Shown: in pieces, positions 6,333 to 21,549 of the stretch | Layout: the number at the start of each line of letters is the position of its first letter | How positions within the stretch are numbered: position 1 is the first letter of the stretch | Origin: Actinomycetes bacterium | GTDB lineage: Bacteria > Actinomycetota > Thermoleophilia > RBG-16-64-13 | DNA length: 64,000 bases | NCBI GenBank assembly: GCA_024637035.1 | Contig: JAGXFW010000030.1 | Coordinates: 1-64,000 of the forward strand | Direction of reading: 5' to 3' | Position numbers and translations under genes: made by a program | The notes under the pieces: model-generated | The model's input: only the letters and a program-made list of their open reading frames with translations | What the model was told of the DNA's origin: nothing | The model's database searches: none

Positions 6333-7766
6333 GTGAGCTCTGGTCTGCGCGATTTCCTCGAGATCCCCTACGAGCAGCTGGAAGAGATGAACCTGGCGGC
6401 CAAGGCGGACCGCCTCGCCCGCCGTCCCGCGGACGAGGTCCGTGAGGAACGGGCCAAGTACCTCATGGACGAGAAGGGCATCAAAGCCGTCACCGTGTGC
6501 TTCACCGACCTCGAAGGCCGGCTCCACATGCTCGACTACGACAAGAAGTTCCTTCTGAAGTCGGCCGACAACCTCACCTTCGATGGGTCTTCCATCCGGG
6601 GGTTCGCGCAACAGGCGGAGTCCGACCTGCGCCTGGTGATCGACTGGCCGGCCTTCTACTGGCTGCCGTCTGACGTATTCGGCTCGGGCAAGGTGCTCGT
6701 GTTCGGCGAAGTGCAGGAGCGCGACGGTTCCCTCTACGGCGCCGACGTGCGGTCCCGCCTCAAGGTCTTCGGGGATGACCTGTGGGCCAAGGACGGCACG
6801 GTGGCCAACGTCTCCAACGAGATCGAGGGTTTCCTCTTCCGCGGCCGTGACGCCGAGAGCCACTATCACGAGACCGGCACCTTCGAGTTCATCTCCACCG
6901 GCGGCTACTACCACTCGCTGCCCGGGGACGCGCTGCGCCAGTTCATCGACGCCGCGGCCGAGGTGCAGCGCGCCATGGGCTTCGGCAACGAGAAAGACCA
7001 CCCCGAGGTGGCGCCTTCTCAGTTCGAGATGAACTACAGCTACACCGAGGCGACCGTGGCCGCCGACCAAGTGCAGCTCTACAAGTTGCTGTCCCGCCAA
7101 GTGGCTGCCCGCATGGATATGACCGCCAGCTTCCTTCCCAAGCCGGTGGCCGGCGTCAACGGTAACGGCATGCACACCAACCTCTCTCTCATGCGCAAGG
7201 GCAAGAACCTGTTCTACGCGAAGACAGGGGAAGATGGCTTGTCGAAACTCGGCTGGTCGGTGATCAACCGCATCCTCGCCAGCGCCAACGGCATCTGTCT
7301 GTTCCTCAACCCGAGCGTGAACTCCTACCGTCGTCTCGACCCCCACTTCGAGGCGCCGAACCAGATCAAAGCGTCGGCGATCGACCGCGGTTCGATGGTG
7401 CGCATCCCGCTCGGCAACGAGCAGACCACCCGCATCGAAGTCCGTTCCATCTCGCCCGACGTCAACCCCTATCTGGCCATCTACGCCCTTCTGCGCACCG
7501 GCCTCGAGGGACCGCCCGCCGAGGAAGACGACTCCAAGCGTCCCCGCACCCGCTTCTTGCCGGGCAACATCTACGACGCCCTGCGACAGTACAAGTCGAG
7601 CAAGTATGCGGTCGAGTTGGTGGGTGAAGACGTGCACGCCAAGTACGGCGAGGTGAAGACTCTGCAGGCCGACCGCTGCCCCCGTGAGCTGGGCAACCGC
7701 GTGAAACGCGGCGAGGTCCAGTTCCATCACGAGGTGACCAACCAGTATCTCTGGTCGCAGTTCTAG
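6333..7766 (+). CDS. glnA: Glutamine synthetase, class I
   Basis: This enzyme (477 residues) makes glutamine from glutamate, ammonia and ATP. GTG 6333 is chosen because AGGAGG stands five bases upstream; the ATG at 6294 would add a non-homologous tail. The beta-grasp segment (LTFDGSSIRGF), the metal and glutamate-binding segment (ETGTFEFISTGG), NGNGMHTNLSLM and the EQTTRIEVRSI region with catalytic arginines are all present. The Asn in HTN resembles GSI-alpha enzymes, which have no adenylylation control; a NLYDLP-type adenylylation site is also absent, so feedback or transcriptional control is more likely. The gene stands alone. Confidence 0.93.
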   Translation: MSSGLRDFLEIPYEQLEEMNLAAKADRLARRPADEVREERAKYLMDEKGIKAVTVCFTDLEGRLHMLDYDKKFLLKSADNLTFDGSSIRGFAQQAESDLRLVIDWPAFYWLPSDVFGSGKVLVFGEVQERDGSLYGADVRSRLKVFGDDLWAKDGTVANVSNEIEGFLFRGRDAESHYHETGTFEFISTGGYYHSLPGDALRQFIDAAAEVQRAMGFGNEKDHPEVAPSQFEMNYSYTEATVAADQVQLYKLLSRQVAARMDMTASFLPKPVAGVNGNGMHTNLSLMRKGKNLFYAKTGEDGLSKLGWSVINRILASANGICLFLNPSVNSYRRLDPHFEAPNQIKASAIDRGSMVRIPLGNEQTTRIEVRSISPDVNPYLAIYALLRTGLEGPPAEEDDSKRPRTRFLPGNIYDALRQYKSSKYAVELVGEDVHAKYGEVKTLQADRCPRELGNRVKRGEVQFHHEVTNQYLWSQF

Positions 7767-7949
7767 GTCGACAGCTTGTCGGTCGACGCGGAGGCGTCGG
7801 GCAGGGTCACCCTGCGCTACCGGGTGGGGCATCCTGATGAGGCGTCGCTTGCGGATGGCTGAGTCGGGTGACCGCACGCTCGGTCTGACCCTCGGCGCCA
7901 CCACCTCGTGACGCTGCCGCCATCCGCGCCATCCTGCCGAATCTTTCTC
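7767..7949. other. Spacer after glnA, no gene seen
   Basis: The region contains a short hairpin around GTCGAC-N9-GTCGAC just after the glnA stop but no T-tract, so a terminator is not certain. No reading frame here looks coding. The TetR-type operator cluster begins at 7950. Confidence 0.4.
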
Positions 7950-8006
7950 GGAAACTTCTTGACAGACAAGTTCCCATGAGGGAAACTACGGACGTGAGCA
8001 GTTTCC
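7950..8006 (+). promoter_or_regulatory. Promoter with two tandem TetR-type operators
   Basis: Two copies of the palindrome GGAAACT-N12-AGTTTCC lie 31 bases apart. The first is 7950-7956 with 7969-7975 (one mismatch, AGTTCCC) and the second is 7981-7987 with 8000-8006 (perfect). A consensus -35 box TTGACA (7959-7964) sits inside the first operator, and the position 17 bases on falls on GAAACT in the second operator, so repressor binding would cover the core promoter. The same arrangement recurs at 16758-16814 upstream of an intact tetR. The downstream coding sequence here is the collapsed tetR at 8027. Confidence 0.82.
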
Positions 8007-8026
8007 AACAGGAGCGGACGGTCGGG

Positions 8027-8095
8027 ATGAACGAGACGAGACAACAGATCGCGAACGCCGAGTTCCTCAAACGCATCGTCTGTTTCATAGGCTAG
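8027..8095 (+). pseudogene. Collapsed tetR gene: both ends kept, middle deleted
   Basis: A 22-codon frame reads MNETRQQIANAEFLKRIVCF plus IG and stop. Its first residues match the start of the intact TetR at 16870 (MNETQQRIVEAF), and its last match that protein's C-terminus (AELLERIGKFVV). About 155 codons between them are missing, including the whole helix-turn-helix and ligand domain. The promoter upstream is also shared with the intact gene. The parsimonious reading is an in-frame internal deletion of a tetR paralogue. A leader peptide is possible but less likely, given that both ends match. Confidence 0.7.
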
Positions 8096-8149
8096 ACACG
8101 AAGTCGGTTCACCGGGCCGCATCGACGTGCGGCCTTTGCAGGGTCCTAT

Positions 8150-8175
8150 GGAAACTCAATACGGATGGGGTTTCC
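8150..8175 (+). promoter_or_regulatory. Third copy of the TetR-type operator, before the hydrolase operon
   Basis: GGAAACT (8150-8156) and GGTTTCC (8169-8175) are separated by exactly 12 bases, matching the operators at 7950-8006 with one mismatch. It lies 20 bases before ATG 8195, so a bound repressor would block transcription entry into the membrane protein and hydrolase genes. The potential ATG at 8165 lies inside it and is therefore not preferred as a start. Confidence 0.72.
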
Positions 8176-8194: not shown

Positions 8195-8614
8195 ATGAGC
8201 AAGGTAGTCTCGATCCTAGTCCTTCTGCTCGGCGCCCAGGTGAACCTGAGCGCGCTGGTGCCGGCGGCACCCGGGCAGACCCCGCCTCCCTGGTGGACCG
8301 GCGGCGGCATCCTGTGGCCGTTCTTCGCCGACACGGCCACGTTGCTGCCGGCGGGCGGGCTCCGCGACGCGCTCACGCCGATCCTCGGGGTCGCAGCGGC
8401 CGCGTGTCTTCTGATGGCGATCGCGGCGCTCGTGGGGTGGGTCGTTCCCACTTCGTGGTTCACGCCGCTCGTCGTCGCCGGTGCCGTGGCGTCCGTCGTC
8501 CTGCAAGTGGTGTGGATCTCGGGCTGGGCCATCGTCCCACTCTTGGTGGATGCGGCGCTCCTGTACGCGGTGTTCGGGCTGCACGTGACGGTCGAAAGCC
8601 TGCGCGGATCATGA
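8195..8614 (+). CDS. Small integral membrane protein, unknown function
   Basis: This is a 139-residue protein with four predicted transmembrane helices (residues about 1-20, 60-85, 88-108 and 110-130). The start at 8195 is preferred over 8165 because GAAAGGAAAAG precedes it and 8165 lies within an operator. There is no signal for enzymatic function. It overlaps the next gene by ATGA, so both are one operon, probably under the GGAAACT-type operator. TetR-controlled small membrane proteins next to hydrolases often relate to export or detoxification, but that is only context. Confidence 0.72.
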   Translation: MSKVVSILVLLLGAQVNLSALVPAAPGQTPPPWWTGGGILWPFFADTATLLPAGGLRDALTPILGVAAAACLLMAIAALVGWVVPTSWFTPLVVAGAVASVVLQVVWISGWAIVPLLVDAALLYAVFGLHVTVESLRGS

Positions 8615-9555
8615 AGGTTCTGCGCTGGGTCGCGATCGGGTCCGTCGCGGCGGTGGCGGTAGGCGTGGCGATGTACGCCGTCGACATGGATCGAGCCTAC
8701 GCCCGCATCAAGGACAAGACCACGACGGTGTCCTCGCCCTACGGCGACATCGAATACTCTGAAGGCGGATCGGGCGCCCCGGTGCTGGTGATCCACGGGA
8801 GCGGCGGCGGCCACGACCAGGGCGAGTTGCTGGCGAGGATCGTCCTCGGCGGCGGGTTCCGTTGGATCGCCCCGTCGCGTTTCGGGTACCTGGGCTCGAC
8901 CTACCACGAAGGGACCACGTTCGACGATCAGGCCCACGCCTACGCGAGCCTGCTCGACCATCTGGGCATCGAGCGGGTCGCGGTGGTGGCTTTGTCGCAC
9001 GGCGGACCCTCGGCTCTGCTCTTCGCTGCGCTGTACCCGGAGCGGGTCTCCTCGCTCACCCTCGTCTCCTGCGGCGTCGCTTCCTCCGAAGTAGGCGACC
9101 AGGCGGAAGCGAACAAGAAGGGCGACATGCTCACGACCATCTTCAAGTACGACCCGCTCTACTGGGGCGTCACCAAGGCGCTCCGGGGGACCTTCATGAA
9201 TCTCATGGGTGCCGACGACGCGGTCGTGGCCGACCTCACCCCCGAGCAGCGGGAATCGATCGACCAGGTGATCGACTACATGAACCCGGTGTCGCCGCGC
9301 TCTGCCGGGGTGGCGTTCGACAACACGGCCGCCCTGCCGAACGAGAGGATCGCCGCCATCCAGGCTCCGACCCTGATACTTCACGCCAAGGACGACCTGC
9401 TCCAGCTCTACCACAACGCCGAGTTCGCCGCCGCCCATATCCCGAACGCCCGGTTGGTGAGTTTCGAGAAGGGCGGCCACGTCGTCCTGGCCGTGGAGCA
9501 GCCGACTGTCCGTGCGCTCACGCAGGAGCACATCCTTGAGCATGTGCGCGAATAG
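8611..9555 (+). CDS. Alpha/beta hydrolase, membrane-anchored
   Basis: The 314-residue protein starts with one hydrophobic helix (residues about 4-24), likely a signal anchor. The rest is an alpha/beta-hydrolase fold with an oxyanion segment VLVIHGSGGG (59-68), nucleophile S129 in VALSHGGPSA, the acid within LHAKDD (about 273-278) and histidine in KGGHVV near the C-terminus. The nucleophile elbow is A-L-S-H-G instead of the usual G-x-S-x-G, as seen in some esterase and haloalkane-dehalogenase relatives. The substrate is unknown. It shares its start with the stop of the membrane protein (ATGA), so the two are translated together and are probably repressed by the TetR at 16870 or its lost paralogue. 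Confidence 0.88.
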   Translation: MKVLRWVAIGSVAAVAVGVAMYAVDMDRAYARIKDKTTTVSSPYGDIEYSEGGSGAPVLVIHGSGGGHDQGELLARIVLGGGFRWIAPSRFGYLGSTYHEGTTFDDQAHAYASLLDHLGIERVAVVALSHGGPSALLFAALYPERVSSLTLVSCGVASSEVGDQAEANKKGDMLTTIFKYDPLYWGVTKALRGTFMNLMGADDAVVADLTPEQRESIDQVIDYMNPVSPRSAGVAFDNTAALPNERIAAIQAPTLILHAKDDLLQLYHNAEFAAAHIPNARLVSFEKGGHVVLAVEQPTVRALTQEHILEHVRE

Positions 9556-10248: not shown

Positions 10249-10759
10249 ATGAGCCGGTCCACGCGAGCCTCCCGTCAGGCCCGATCCCGCCCTACGGGTG
10301 GGTCGGGGTCGGTCGCATCTGAGGGCGTCCCGGACGGCCGCAGACTGCTCGTGCGCCTGGACGAGGTACTGGTGGCCCGACACTACAGCCCGCGTACGGC
10401 GGAGGCGTATCGGGCGTGGGTGAAACGATTCATGTAGAACCAGGCGCTGTCGGCGCTTCTTTCGCCAGGAGCGTCGCTGGAAAGATCGGAAGACGGGACA
10501 GGAGGGCCGGCATCACATCCACGAGACGTTGGTGCAGCGCGCCGTTCGGCAGGCCACCCTCCTCGACGTTGGGATCCTCAAGCAGGGCGGCTGCCACACA
10601 TTCCGTCACTCCTTCGCGACCCATCTACCCGAGGCGGGCTACGACATTCGCACCATCCAGGAGTTGCTCGGTCACAAGGATGCCCGCACCACCATGATCT
10701 ACACGCACGTATTGAATCGCGACGGCCATGGCGTTCGCAGTCCGCTTGACGGCTGGTAG
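10249..10759 (+). pseudogene. Integron-type tyrosine recombinase (IntI), deleted and frameshifted
   Basis: The first part (10249-10437) encodes the N-terminal SAM-like domain: LLVRLDEVLVARHYSPRTAE and YRAWVKRFM, followed by a stop and then NQALSALL, the next IntI segment. The last part (about 10470-10759, another frame) encodes [16 protein letters not shown], the catalytic [10 protein letters not shown] box, [11 protein letters not shown] and the nucleophile Tyr in [10 protein letters not shown], ending GVRSPLDGW. This C-terminus is distinctive of integron integrases rather than phage integrases. The central part with the first catalytic Arg is missing, so it is inactive. It reads in the same direction as the cassette that follows, which is the inverse of classical integrons. 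Confidence 0.88.
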
Positions 10760-10929
10760 GGCTGCCTATACTGTCCGCATATCCACGGCATTGACCGCGG
10801 GGTGCTAGCGAGGTTCGTAGCCTCCTGGCCAGCGACCAGCAGCCTTCTTGACTCTGCCGTTTCGGTGATACGAAGACAGTGGGGTGCTGCGTCGGTGGAG
10901 CTATACAGACTGGATAATGGTTGTTAGGC
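10760..10929 (+). other. Candidate attI region with core site
   Basis: The stretch between the integrase relic and the cassette gene ends with GTTAGGC at 10923-10929, the core-site consensus at which cassettes join. No matching GCCTAAC arm is found upstream, so it behaves as a simple site (attI-like) instead of a second attC. Nothing else coding is seen in it. Confidence 0.5.
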
Positions 10930-11849
10930 GCAATCTGAGTTTGGAGACCTGAGTGAGCGTGGAATCGTCGGCGATGAGTGGTCGACTCAGCACGAGTGAG
11001 CACCGGATTTCGATTGCCTTGGCAGCGCTGATGGCCACGCAGGCTCTTCTGGGCGTGCTCGCTTCCGAAGCTTACCGCGATGTCGCGTGGATCAAGGCAA
11101 CGTGGTTCGGCAACGACCTGGTCACTTTGCTGATCGCCGTCCCGCTCTTGATTGGCGCAATGTGGTCCGCGTCTCGAGGTTCCATCCGCGGTCGTCTCGT
11201 CTGGCTCGGTGTCTTGGGCTACGCGGTCTACAACTACACCTACTATGTCCTCGGCGCCGCACTGAACGTGTTCTTCGCGATCTACGTGGCTACCTTCGTG
11301 GTCGCGATCGCGTCGCTGATCATCGGTCTTGTGGGAACTGATGCGACGTCCGTCGCAAAGGCCTTCTCGGTCAGGACTCCTGCGCGGATCCTTGGTGGCT
11401 ACTACGTTTTCGTGGCCACTAGCCTTTCTGTGGTGTGGCTGGGCACCTGGGCTGCCTACGTGTTTGCGGGTCGCCCGACGCCGGTCGAGACGGAGGCCTT
11501 CCATCTCGTCGCCGCCCTCGATATGACACTCATGGTTCCGGCGCTCGTGACCGGCGGGGTGCTTCTATGGCATCGCAGGCCTTGGGGCTACCTCATCGCG
11601 GCGGTAGGGGGAATTCAGGCATCGCTCTACTTGCTGGTGCTGTCGGTGAACTCGGGCGTTGCCATCAGTCGCGGTCTCGTTGCTGCCCCGGGTGAGCTCC
11701 CGATCTGGGGCACGCTGCTGGCGCTCACATTCGTCGCAACGGCTTGGCTCCTGTACTCGTGCGATGCGCCTAACAAGCGCATCAACCCGTCTCGCACGGG
11801 GTTATCGTACTAAGCGAGACGCATCGCTCGCGGGTTATGCGCAATCACG
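10924..11849 (+). mobile_element. Integron gene cassette of about 926 bp
   Basis: Recombination at G/TTAGGC places the cassette between the core site at 10923-10929 and the attC core at 11849-11855. It holds one gene in the normal orientation, with only 29 bases before the start codon and with the stop codon inside the attC. This is the standard cassette layout. Because the local integrase is broken, the cassette is probably fixed in place unless an integrase acts in trans. Confidence 0.78.
10953..11813 (+). CDS. Cassette-encoded multi-pass membrane protein
   Basis: The 286-residue protein has about eight hydrophobic helices spread over the whole length and no recognisable catalytic motif. 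GTG 10953 follows a GGAGACCTGA ribosome-binding region. Its C-terminal tail (APNKRINPSRTGLSY) is encoded by the attC itself, a common feature of cassette genes that read into their recombination site. I do not recognise the family. As cassette cargo it was most likely acquired horizontally. Confidence 0.8.
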   Translation: MSVESSAMSGRLSTSEHRISIALAALMATQALLGVLASEAYRDVAWIKATWFGNDLVTLLIAVPLLIGAMWSASRGSIRGRLVWLGVLGYAVYNYTYYVLGAALNVFFAIYVATFVVAIASLIIGLVGTDATSVAKAFSVRTPARILGGYYVFVATSLSVVWLGTWAAYVFAGRPTPVETEAFHLVAALDMTLMVPALVTGGVLLWHRRPWGYLIAAVGGIQASLYLLVLSVNSGVAISRGLVAAPGELPIWGTLLALTFVATAWLLYSCDAPNKRINPSRTGLSY

Positions 11850-15718: not shown

Positions 15719-16231
15719 ATGACGGCAGCGATCAGCGTCGATGCTCTGCGCAAGTCCTTCGGGGACCGCGAAGTCATCTCCGGCGTCAGCTTCGAGGTCG
15801 GCGTGGGTGAGTGTTTCGGACTTCTTGGACACAACGGCGCGGGCAAGACCGTGACCGTTGAGATCCTGGAGGGATACCTGAAGCGCGATGACGGGACGGT
15901 CTCAGTGCTCGGCACCGACCCGGCACAACCGACGCGGTCGTGGCGCGAACGCATCGGAGTCGTCTTGCAGGAAGTCGAGCTGCTCCCCACCTTGACCGTG
16001 CTGGAGACAGTCTCCATGTTCGCCGACCTGTACTCGAACCCTCGGCCTGTCAGGGAGACCATCGAGCTGGTCGGCATGGGTGGGATGGAATCGGCGAGGA
16101 TATCGGGGCTGTCCGGTGGCGAGAGGCGGCGCGTCGACGTTGCGCTCGGCATCATCGGCAGTACCACGGGATGCCTACCGCCGACCGAACACCGAGTGAC
16201 GATGAGGGTGGCATGTTCGAACGCGCCATAG
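15719..16231 (+). pseudogene. ABC transporter ATP-binding subunit, 3' half lost
   Basis: Residues 1-145 are a normal ABC ATPase: Walker A GHNGAGKT (about 40-47), a Q-loop LQEVE and the signature LSGGERRRVDVALGI. Homology stops there. Walker B, the H-loop and the rest are replaced by about 20 unrelated residues, and no permease gene follows. The reading frame runs into the start of the next gene. A deletion that removed the ATPase C-terminus and probably its permease explains this. The product cannot hydrolyse ATP normally. Confidence 0.8.
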
Positions 16232-16770
16232 ACGAGCACACCACCATCCGCGAGATCTCCGTCGGTGACGCCGACGAGCTCTTCGCGCTGGTGGACGCCG
16301 AACGCGCACGCCTCCGCGAGTGGTTGCCGTGGGTTGACGCGATGACCGAGTCGGAGCACGAGACGCAGTTCATCGCTTCCGCGGTGAAGCAGAGCCGAGC
16401 GGGGCTCGGATTCATCTGTGTCGTCGTCCATCGTGGGCGGATCGTGGGGACGGTGGGGTATCACCCGATCGACCGGGTCGGGAAGTCCGCAGAGATCGGC
16501 TACTGGCTGAGCCGAGAGGCGGTTGGGAACGGGATCATCACCCGGGCCTGCCGAATACTCGTCGATCACGCCTTCCGCGAGTTGGGCGTGGAGCGCGTGG
16601 TAATCCCCGCCGCAGTCGGCAACGGGCGCAGTCGAGCCGTCCCGGAGCGGCTGGGCTTCGGGAGCGAGGGCATCACCCCCAAGGCGGAGTGGCTCTACGA
16701 CCACTGGGTCGATCACGTGCGGTACTCGATGTCGGCGGGGGACTGGCGGGAGCGCGAGGAAACTCCTTGA
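16213..16770 (+). CDS. RimJ/RimL-type GNAT acetyltransferase
   Basis: The 185-residue protein matches ribosomal-protein-serine-type acetyltransferases. It has an N-terminal VDAERARLREWLPWVDAM block (about 30-47), GRIVGTVGYHPID, and the acetyl-CoA-binding region EIGYWLSREAVGNGIITRAC. Start ATG 16213 follows a GAGGGTGG box and overlaps the broken ABC ATPase frame. The stop codon lies within the first operator of the tetR promoter. Acceptor specificity is unknown. Confidence 0.88.
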   Translation: MFERAIDEHTTIREISVGDADELFALVDAERARLREWLPWVDAMTESEHETQFIASAVKQSRAGLGFICVVVHRGRIVGTVGYHPIDRVGKSAEIGYWLSREAVGNGIITRACRILVDHAFRELGVERVVIPAAVGNGRSRAVPERLGFGSEGITPKAEWLYDHWVDHVRYSMSAGDWREREETP

Positions 16771-16814
16771 CAAACGGGTTTCAATGGTGGAAACTATACG
16801 CATAAGAAGTTTCC
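16758..16814 (+). promoter_or_regulatory. tetR promoter with two tandem operators
   Basis: Two GGAAACT-N12-AGTTTCC palindromes lie 31 bases apart: 16758-16764 with 16777-16783 (right arm GGTTTCA, two mismatches) and 16789-16795 with 16808-16814 (perfect). TTGACA (16767-16772) sits in the first operator, and the -10 position 17 bases on (GAAACT, 16790-16795) lies in the second. The layout is the same as at 7950-8006. Autorepression by the TetR encoded at 16870 is the natural inference. Confidence 0.82.
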
Positions 16815-16869: not shown

Positions 16870-17409
16870 ATGAATGAAACACAACAGCGGATCGTCGAGG
16901 CTTTCGAGCGGCACGTGGAGAGCCACGGCTACGCCAAGACCAACCTCGATGACGTCTCCCGCGAACTGAAGATCTCCAAGAAGACCATCTACGTGCATTT
17001 CGACAGCAAGCAGGACATCTATTCCCGGGTGGTGGCCCGCCAGGCGGAGCGGATGAAGGTGCACCTCGCGGCAGCCGTGGCGCCCCTGCCCACGTATGCG
17101 GCGCGCGTGGAGGCGGCGGTGAAGTCCATAATCGAGCAAGGCAGGGCCCATATCGACGAGACGGGCGAGGACGAGTGGCTGAGCGAGTACGAGGTCGCGG
17201 CGGATGCGTTCCGCAAGGCGAACGGAGACCTCCTGCGCGAACTGGTGCAGGGCGGAATGGACGCCGGCGAGTTCCGCGAGGGCGACTCGTCTCTGGTGGA
17301 GAAGATGGTTGCGGCGATGATCGTGGAGTACCTCGTGTTGGTGAACTCCGACCCGTCGTACGACCGCGACGCGGAGCTGCTCGAACGTATCGGCAAGTTC
17401 GTGGTCTAG
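16870..17409 (+). CDS. TetR-family transcriptional repressor
   Basis: The 179-residue protein has an N-terminal helix-turn-helix (about 5-52: VESHGYAKTNLDDVSRELKI then SKKTIYVHFDSKQDIYSRVV) and an all-helical ligand domain. Its promoter holds two GGAAACT-N12-AGTTTCC operators, and the same operator occurs three more times at 7950-8175, upstream of a collapsed paralogue and a hydrolase operon. This protein therefore probably controls itself and the 8195-9555 operon. The ligand is unknown. The gene is intact and starts at ATG 16870 with a weak SD. Confidence 0.92.
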   Translation: MNETQQRIVEAFERHVESHGYAKTNLDDVSRELKISKKTIYVHFDSKQDIYSRVVARQAERMKVHLAAAVAPLPTYAARVEAAVKSIIEQGRAHIDETGEDEWLSEYEVAADAFRKANGDLLRELVQGGMDAGEFREGDSSLVEKMVAAMIVEYLVLVNSDPSYDRDAELLERIGKFVV

Positions 17410-20015: not shown

Positions 20016-20593
20016 TGCGTGTGCGGGGTCGACGCCAACCGCGAACATCTCCGCGAGTGGCTCCCGTTGGCGGACGCCAACACGGCTGCGACCCACACTC
20101 GGCAGTTCTTCGAGGCACGATCCGTCCCCGCAGAACGACGACCAGCCCCCTCACTGCGGCGCTCGCGACCGCTTGGGTCACCGCCGCCTCGGTCGCGGCC
20201 GTCATCGCTTGCGTGTTGGCCCTGGCCATGCTCGCCGGGTGCTCATCGAAGAGCGCACTCGATGGGACCAGCTGGAAGCTGGTGGGTTGGACGGTCAGCT
20301 CCCTCGACCCGAACGACTTCGAAATCACAGCGGCCTTTGCCGAGAGACTGATCTCGGGTGGGAGTGGGGTCAACACGTACAGCGGGTCTTACACGGCCGG
20401 TGGAGATGGAACGTTCGAAGTGGGGGAGATCGCCGGCACTCTCATGGGAGGTTCGGAACCGGCGATGCGCGCGGAGACCATCTACGTGACGCTGCTCGGG
20501 GAGGCTCGGTCCTTCGCTGTGTCGGACGCCACGCTGACCCTCTACGACGTAGGCGGCAACGAGTCGCTGATCTTCGAGTCCGCAGGCGGCTAG
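20003..20593 (+). CDS. META-domain (HslJ-like) lipoprotein
   Basis: The mature part reads LDGTSWKLVGWTVSSLDPND onward to the C-terminus and matches the META/HslJ beta-domain, preceded by a long hydrophobic signal and lipobox (ALAMLAGCSS, Cys near residue 77 from the first ATG). The true start is unclear. The first ~45 codons from ATG 20003 overlap a foreign acetyltransferase remnant in another frame, and no well-placed start with an SD precedes the signal sequence. The gene may have been fused to a new 5' end by the deletion that made the remnant. The function is unknown; META proteins are linked to heat or antibiotic tolerance. Confidence 0.7.
   Translation: MEHVMRVRGRRQPRTSPRVAPVGGRQHGCDPHSAVLRGTIRPRRTTTSPLTAALATAWVTAASVAAVIACVLALAMLAGCSSKSALDGTSWKLVGWTVSSLDPNDFEITAAFAERLISGGSGVNTYSGSYTAGGDGTFEVGEIAGTLMGGSEPAMRAETIYVTLLGEARSFAVSDATLTLYDVGGNESLIFESAGG
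20022..20120 (+). pseudogene. N-terminal remnant of a RimJ/RimL-type acetyltransferase
   Basis: In the frame offset from the lipoprotein, bases 20022-20120 encode CGVDANREHLREWLPLADAN and THTRQFFEAR. VDANREHLREWLPL is the signature N-terminal block of RimJ/RimL acetyltransferases, also seen intact at 16213-16770 (VDAERARLREWLPWVDAM). Nothing after it continues the family, so it is a fragment left by deletion. Confidence 0.6.
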
Positions 20594-20598
20594 GTACC

Positions 20599-21549
20599 GT
20601 GATCGTCCACCTGGTCGACGGCACCTACGAGCTCTTCCGTCAGTTCTACGGCCTGCGCCGAGGGAGGAAGGAAGCGCGTCCAGTGGACAGCGGTCCCTCG
20701 ACGACCGAATCGCCGCCCCCTGCCAGTGATCCCGCGGCTTCCGCCGAATCGCGGCTCGACGCCGCCAAGCCACCGGAAGACGCCGACCCGCCCCTCGACG
20801 CGGTTCGCGGTGTGCTGCACTTCGTCCTGCGCTTGTTGGAAGGTGGGGCGACCCATGTGGGGGCGGCCACCGATCACGTTATCGAGTCGTTCCGCAACGA
20901 CCTCTGGCCGGGCTACAAGACGGGGGCTGGGGTCGACCCGGAGCTCCGCGCCCAGTTCGGGCCATTGGAGGACGCCCTCACCGCCATGGGTGTCTCTGTG
21001 TGGGCCATGGTCGAACTCGAGGCTGATGACGCTCTTGCCTCGGCCGCCCGGCTGGCTGCCGCCGACCCCCGCGTGGACAAGGTCTCGATCTGGACGCCGG
21101 ACAAGGACCTCGGTCAGTGCGTGCGCGGAGACCGCGTGGTGCAGGTGGAGAGCCGCACCGGTACGATTCGCGACGCGGCCGCCGTCCGACGCAAGTTCGG
21201 CGTGGGGCCCGAGTTGATCCCGGACTACCTGGCCCTGGTCGGCGACTCTGCCGACGGGTATCCGGGCATCCGCGGCATCGGCGCGAAGACCGCCGCCGCG
21301 CTTCTGAACCGGCATGGCCCCATCGAGGAGTTCCCGCCCGATGTGCTCGGGGAGCGGATCGACGCCGCCCTTCTCTTCAAGAACCTGGCGACTCTCAGGG
21401 ACGAGTCGCCGCTCTTCGCCGACGTAACCGAGTTGGAGTGGCGTGGTCCGTCCGACGGATTCGAGGAGTGGGCCGTACGGGTCGGGGACCCGGGACTCCT
21501 GGAGCGGTGCCGTGCGCTCCGACAGCGCGATCGCTCCGAGCGTTCGTAG
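20599..21549 (+). CDS. Stand-alone 5'-3' exonuclease (PolI N-terminal domain type)
   Basis: GTG 20599 starts a 316-residue flap-endonuclease-family protein. It begins VIVHLVDGTYELFRQFYGLR, where the first metal-binding Asp and the Arg-rich region are seen. The VELEADDALASAARLA block (about 132-147) and WTPDKDLGQCV carry the acidic metal ligands, and GIRGIGAKTAAALL is the helix-hairpin-helix. Residues about 25-70 form a Pro/Ser/Ala-rich insert absent from usual family members. There is no polymerase domain. It probably removes RNA primers or flaps. The start is six bases after the lipoprotein stop. Confidence 0.9.
   Translation: MIVHLVDGTYELFRQFYGLRRGRKEARPVDSGPSTTESPPPASDPAASAESRLDAAKPPEDADPPLDAVRGVLHFVLRLLEGGATHVGAATDHVIESFRNDLWPGYKTGAGVDPELRAQFGPLEDALTAMGVSVWAMVELEADDALASAARLAAADPRVDKVSIWTPDKDLGQCVRGDRVVQVESRTGTIRDAAAVRRKFGVGPELIPDYLALVGDSADGYPGIRGIGAKTAAALLNRHGPIEEFPPDVLGERIDAALLFKNLATLRDESPLFADVTELEWRGPSDGFEEWAVRVGDPGLLERCRALRQRDRSERS

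Follow-up and report, generated by a model that had tools for sequence, protein, structure and literature searches.

A predicted three-locus TetR regulon with tandem operators of fixed geometry in an actinobacterial genome

Introduction

The classic TetR/TetA system is autoregulated through two operators that overlap the promoter of the repressor gene (PMC3511530). A single dimer of TetR covers roughly one turn of the helix. The QacR operator comprises 28 bp, with outer arms enclosing a long non-palindromic centre (PMC6018408). Here we analyse a stretch of 64,000 nucleotides from an actinobacterial genome (the window), for which a preliminary description had proposed that a TetR protein encoded at 16870 regulates both the promoter in front of it and an operon 8 kb away. 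The predicted operators fall into the QacR-like size class of about 26-28 bp, with half-sites spaced too widely for a single dimer.

Results

Operator sites in the window and the genome

The window contains five sites related to GGAAACT-N12-AGTTTCC, located at two loci, A and B:

7950..7975, + strand: putative operator A1, GGAAACT-N12-AGTTCCC, one arm mismatch; contains a -35-like TTGACA at 7959-7964
7981..8006, + strand: putative operator A2, no arm mismatch; left arm includes GAAACT (7982-7987) at the -10 position
8150..8175, + strand: putative operator A3, one arm mismatch; lies a short way 5' of the ribosome-binding site that serves the target operon
16758..16783, + strand: putative operator B1, two arm mismatches; TTGACA at 16767-16772; the upstream GNAT gene has its stop codon here
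16789..16814, + strand: putative operator B2, no arm mismatch; GAAACT at 16790-16795

The coordinates, the 12-base spacer and the maximum of two arm mismatches (1, 0, 1, 2 and 0) agree with the preliminary description. The same applies to the 31-bp distance within both tandem pairs and to the placement of TTGACA in the left and a -10 position in the right operator, where GAAACT lies in the left arm. Exact matches numbered two in the window versus none in 100 shuffles, and with up to three mismatches there were six versus a shuffle mean of 1.0.

In the entire genome (3.57 Mb on 34 contigs, estimated to be 100% complete), the motif with up to two mismatches occurred at 10 places, compared with 2 for the reversed control pattern (per strand). 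Eight operators form three intergenic clusters, namely loci A and B and a third locus on contig C14, with sites at 10710, 10741 and 10819, the first two 31 bp apart. As C14 adds three sites to the five of the window, the genome total is eight sites at three loci. The number of putatively controlled loci is three rather than the two proposed before. The remaining two matches, on C12 and C16 with two mismatches each, resemble background, and the C16 match lies inside an ORF. The copies of the second and third operators (op2 and op3) in the source genome have at most one arm mismatch. The first operator (op1) has one or two at loci A, B and C14 and is perfect in most relatives; its affinity could therefore be reduced in the source genome.

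Promoter element and operator anatomy

TTGACA-17-GAAACT is kept in 17/17 elements. GAAACT agrees only loosely with a -10 box, and the promoter went unlisted in a scan for the sigma-70 consensus. Because the element is invariant within the operators, the promoter would be occluded once the repressor is bound. In a comparison of 41 operators, conservation and symmetry were confined to the arms; of the 12-base interior, only the -35 hexamer in op1 is conserved. The centres of GGAAAC and GTTTCC lie 20 bp, or two helical turns, apart within one operator, and the tandem half-sites show a fixed 20-11-20 bp geometry with the promoter inside. The 31-bp spacing holds at both window loci and is not an absolute rule, as two relatives have 32 bp. 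Individual 13-base spacers occur; two elements with such a spacer in op1 still keep TTGACA-17-GAAACT, since the extra base falls to the left of the -35 hexamer and leaves the promoter spacing untouched.

GGAAAC is similar to some -35 elements of ECF sigma factors, and another regulator of this kind might read the sites. We consider this highly improbable, because the motif has conserved arms on both sides that form an inverted repeat, encloses a standard TTGACA and follows one TetR family in 11/11 independent genomes (see below). Furthermore, TetR relatives of 39-44% identity are preceded by GTAAACG-N12-CGTTTAC-like palindromes, in which the spacing is identical and the arms differ. The changed arms would fit a co-evolution of repressor and operator; they are suggestive only, since free arms match at neighbouring spacers too. 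In two of the loci with distant relatives (L078 and L088), the interior of the operators 5' of tetR contains a second GAAACG as an offset repeat, which would suit two overlapping dimers.

Linkage of the motif to one TetR family

About 85,000 genomes were scanned with the four-half-site pattern GGAAAC-N14-GTTYC-N6-GGAAAC-N14-GTKTC, that is, with the motif only, leaving out TTGACA and any protein information. The scan returned 13 stretches, 11 of them actinobacterial, with approximately 0.1 expected by chance (calculated at uniform base composition). The 11 actinobacterial MAGs are labelled Coriobacteriia, Anaerosomatales, Thermoleophilia, Aeromicrobium, Actinomycetes or Actinobacteria. In all 11 actinobacterial stretches, the tandem operators are immediately followed by a gene for a homologue of the window's TetR. 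The E value is 1e-17 for one gene cut by the locus end and 1e-67 or better for the others (best, 1e-95), and the ten complete homologues are 58-80% identical over their length. All 11 genomes also have op3 behind tetR, in one case (G402) with two mismatches. Whole-genome searches of the relatives with at most one mismatch revealed only the three sites of the tetR unit, save for one stray site in G404. In the reverse direction, 13/13 TetR proteins of 58-70% identity from the class of L030 carry the element. Thus, motif and repressor are linked both ways, as the motif search finds the TetR and the protein search finds the motif. Together with the shuffles and the reversed-pattern control, the tetR linkage in 11/11 genomes rules out a chance origin of the sites. 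The genome search proposed earlier as a check therefore turned out in favour of a regulatory motif: it is rare, intergenic and located next to TetR orthologues in other genomes.

The two remaining stretches of the scan, L034 (Lachnospiraceae) and L035 (Bacteroidetes), and the viral contig L047 encode no TetR of this kind, and we attribute their repeats to chance.

The TetR protein and its surroundings

The repressor candidate is encoded at locus B:

16870..17409, + strand: tetR, 179 aa; Pfam TetR_N, E 6e-10; only close family member in the genome

The protein scored 39.2 bits against PF00440, the TetR N-terminal helix-turn-helix (curated cut-off, 24), and the next-best hit in the genome is 28% identical to it. 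None of the named NCBIfam TetR equivalogs (ScbR-like, FasR, FadR and others) scored above its cut-off, the best being NF041196 with 40.8 versus 150 bits. The AlphaFold model shows an all-helical two-domain TetR fold with a mean pLDDT of 87. Its top Foldseek matches are TetR-family regulators, with FadR (5gp9, 5gpa, 3whb) and QacR (3br0, 1jt0) as the best PDB entries.

Upstream of tetR, the ORF of a GNAT acetyltransferase (16213-16770) ends within operator B1, so that its TGA stop codon overlaps TTGACA. This arrangement would be expected if the tetR unit had inserted at the 3' terminus of the GNAT gene. Just before the GNAT gene, the ORF of an ABC-transporter ATPase (15719-16231, 170 aa) stops abruptly and has an unrelated tail, which suggests a rearrangement scar beside locus B. 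A 5'-3' exonuclease-like gene whose product starts with IVHL(V/I)DGTYELFRQ(F/Y)YGLRRGR is found approximately 3 kb behind tetR in the window (20590-21549) and directly behind the tetR unit in G005 (L028, ~6856-7932). As this gene lies near tetR in both genomes, locus B probably keeps the ancestral neighbourhood.

Target genes, tetR stub and hairpin

Loci A and C14 contain the following features:

8027..8095, + strand (locus A): 22-codon tetR remnant, MNETRQQIANAEFLKRIVCFIG, recognised by DNA alignment to two intact tetR genes, one from a relative and the other from locus B
8115..8134, + strand (locus A): hairpin GGCCGCA-N6-TGCGGCC followed by TTTG; terminator-like; an equivalent lies between tetR and op3 in relatives
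8195..8614, + strand (locus A): hydrophobic protein, predicted membrane protein, 139 aa, MSKVVSILVLLLGAQVNLSALVPAAPGQ...; orthologous to the gene that follows op3 in relatives
8611..9555, + strand (locus A): alpha/beta hydrolase, Pfam PF00561, E 4e-22; ATGA overlap with the previous gene
10710-10844 (C14, L011): cluster of three putative operators, TTGACAAAC in the left operator, 31-bp tandem
10883-11806 (C14): CPBP (Rce1-like) membrane protease, 307 aa, downstream of the three operators

The stub consists of MNETRQQIANA and EFLKRIVCFIG, which correspond to the two ends of tetR, 11 codons each, brought together by an in-frame deletion. The "broken paralogue" of the preliminary description is indeed a degenerate tetR; more precisely, it arose by a clean internal in-frame deletion of a tetR at its ancestral place. 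We regard it as the scar of the ancestral gene.

The 139-aa protein is 67-81% identical to its counterparts in five relatives and matched no Pfam family even at E values up to 5. The CPBP protein of C14 shares 65% identity with the one encoded downstream of the tetR unit in L040. The predicted targets comprise small hydrophobic proteins that fall into three or more sequence types without mutual relationship. Together with the protease and the hydrolase in the source genome, they hint at an envelope or membrane-stress signal.

The window hairpin is under the T-run threshold of the terminator scan. The relatives have a GC-rich hairpin with a short T-rich stretch between tetR and op3; in L031 its sequence is wholly different and the folding is kept, which fits a terminator or attenuator. 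Before op3, we looked for a convincing -10 region of a separate promoter and saw none.

It is conceivable that the palindromes themselves are RNA hairpins or MITE-like mobile repeats rather than protein-binding sites. Every site could fold into a hairpin of 7-8 bp, the 5' leader of the target gene contains op3, and the block is present three times in the source genome. However, op1 and op2 are partly untranscribed and overlap the -35 and -10 positions, the relatives have three sites that are always arranged around tetR instead of dispersed repeats, and the flanks are unshared outside the tetR unit. We therefore assign this explanation only a very small probability.

Break-up of the ancestral unit

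In G005 (JAOSKU010000001.1, Thermoleophilia bacterium FR_37; same family by grouping), the genes and sites are arranged as op1-op2-tetR-hairpin-op3-membrane protein. In L040, the CPBP protease gene comes next after that of the membrane protein. From this comparison, the ancestral layout appears to have been op1-op2-tetR-hairpin-op3-membrane protein, sometimes followed by CPBP. Locus A keeps the whole unit except for the middle of tetR, and a hydrolase gene lies behind the membrane protein gene. Locus B retains op1-op2-tetR only, and C14 is composed of op1-op2-hairpin-op3-CPBP, with tetR missing. We propose that the compact unit underwent copying or fragmentation in this genome and that only one of the pieces retained tetR, so that the single repressor would act in trans.

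Alternatively, loci A and C14 might be decaying relics of duplication outside meaningful TetR control. The arm mismatches in op1 at A, B and C14, compared with the mostly perfect op1 of the relatives, the deletion of tetR at locus A and the situation in the same-genus genome G001, with only a truncated tetR and no site of up to one mismatch, would be in line with decay. Relics are, however, expected to drift in spacing as well, whereas the eight operators retain most of the GGAAAC/GTTTCC core, the N12 spacer and the 31-bp tandem register. Likewise, TTGACA-17-GAAACT and the downstream genes are intact, and op2 and op3 have at most one mismatch. Decay of loci A and C14 is thus unlikely, and we favour their control by the TetR of locus B.

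The tetR system of G001 is apparently decaying. Its TetR fragment (L043, G001:C55:601-750 and downstream) starts at residue 57, and a second in-frame deletion fuses HIDETGEDEWL to ERIGRFAG; the hairpin still follows. An operator with at most one mismatch was looked for in this genome and none was found.

Candidate selenoproteins behind distant TetR relatives

In five genomes of the class around L030 (L078, L079, L080, L081 and L088), the TetR relatives of 39-44% identity precede two tandem small hydrophobic ORFs. Both contain a TGA in frame at a constant position, with the contexts SLV-U-IAY and GTV-U-IVY. A single TGA is present in the first ORF in 5/5 genomes; the second was recovered cleanly in four and was not extracted from L081. 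Homologues in L033, located behind a window-type TetR (~1482-1670 and further on), have cysteine at the place of the TGA (SVACGI, SALVCMM). Differences after the TGA are concentrated at third codon positions, and in most copies a stable hairpin follows approximately 16-35 nt past each TGA. SelB was found above the cut-off in 3/5 genomes and tRNA-Sec in 4/5, with at least one of them in 5/5. The two ORFs thus likely encode a new pair of small membrane selenoproteins, with a TetR related to that of the window in putative control.

Discussion

We conclude, with a probability of roughly 0.88, that the eight sites are operators of the TetR encoded at 16870-17409, which would repress its own gene and control both the 8195-9555 operon and the C14 CPBP gene in trans, all three being induced together by a ligand. 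The control of its own promoter and of the 8195-9555 operon, proposed at the outset, is supported by a rare intergenic motif beside TetR orthologues and by the relatives, in which the same repressor and membrane-protein genes form one unit.

Bound to the tandem operators op1 and op2, the TetR would cover TTGACA-17-GAAACT and shut the tetR promoter. As the -35 and the -10 positions would both be covered, autorepression is the natural reading. The copies of this promoter at the membrane-protein/hydrolase operon and at the C14 CPBP gene would be silenced in trans by the same protein. At loci A and C14, op3 past the terminator-like hairpin would provide a second block just before the target gene; between hairpin and ribosome-binding site, it could stop polymerase that has escaped. 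A ligand would then release the repressor, whereupon all three loci would be induced together. Generally, op3 could act as a roadblock, as a second promoter block or by looping. Measured from start to start, op2 and op3 are separated by 78 bp in C14, by 169 bp in locus A and by ~628-670 bp in the relatives, and the helical phase is not constant. Looping at a fixed phase is unsupported and less likely, as distances and phases vary widely.

From the 31-bp spacing, it had been suggested that two dimers occupy each tandem pair. The half-site spacing makes four dimers more likely. Two TetR dimers per single operator are the more likely mode, because half-site centres 20 bp apart do not fit one dimer. 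The fixed 20-11-20 geometry provides a test case for the loading of TetR dimers on long operators.

As judged from sequence, the system represents an uncharacterised TetR regulon of a known type, in which the operators are laid out in an unusually fixed way and the break-up is well documented. An unnamed TetR thereby gains a predicted regulon, for which the operators are defined and the targets can be tested; among these targets is a membrane-protein family without a Pfam model. A local autoregulated operon would have turned into a three-locus regulon by copying of the promoter-operator block and in-frame deletion of the repressor gene, and the ancestral layout is still kept in relatives, where it can be used for comparison. 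The odds are about even that the TetR lineage as a whole represents an undescribed actinobacterial cassette, composed of a four-half-site promoter operator, a terminator and op3, with various small membrane proteins behind it, including two tandem selenoproteins in distant members. The source genome would then be copying this cassette into a multi-locus regulon while trimming the repressor. In the open-access literature, we found no paper tying these arms to a TetR and none describing a third operator beyond a terminator.

AtrA-type regulators of Streptomyces belong to an actinobacterial TetR family with operators of the GGAA...TTCC palindrome type and serve here as a lead only; their half-sites are one helical turn apart, compared with two turns here. 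The two-dimer class of QacR, FadR and CgmR resembles the present system in its operator, which here measures 26 bp and likewise has outer arms and a long non-palindromic centre, and QacR and FadR are the closest folds of the predicted structure. In contrast, sequence identity is only 13-20% and the arms differ; moreover, here two operators stand in tandem 31 bp apart, with a third one beyond a hairpin. With classic TetR/TetA, the system shares a predicted autoregulating repressor and operators that overlap the promoter. It differs in that tetR and target are co-directional here and divergent there, that the operators are longer, that two of the three loci would be controlled in trans, and that the target does not count among the recognised efflux pumps.
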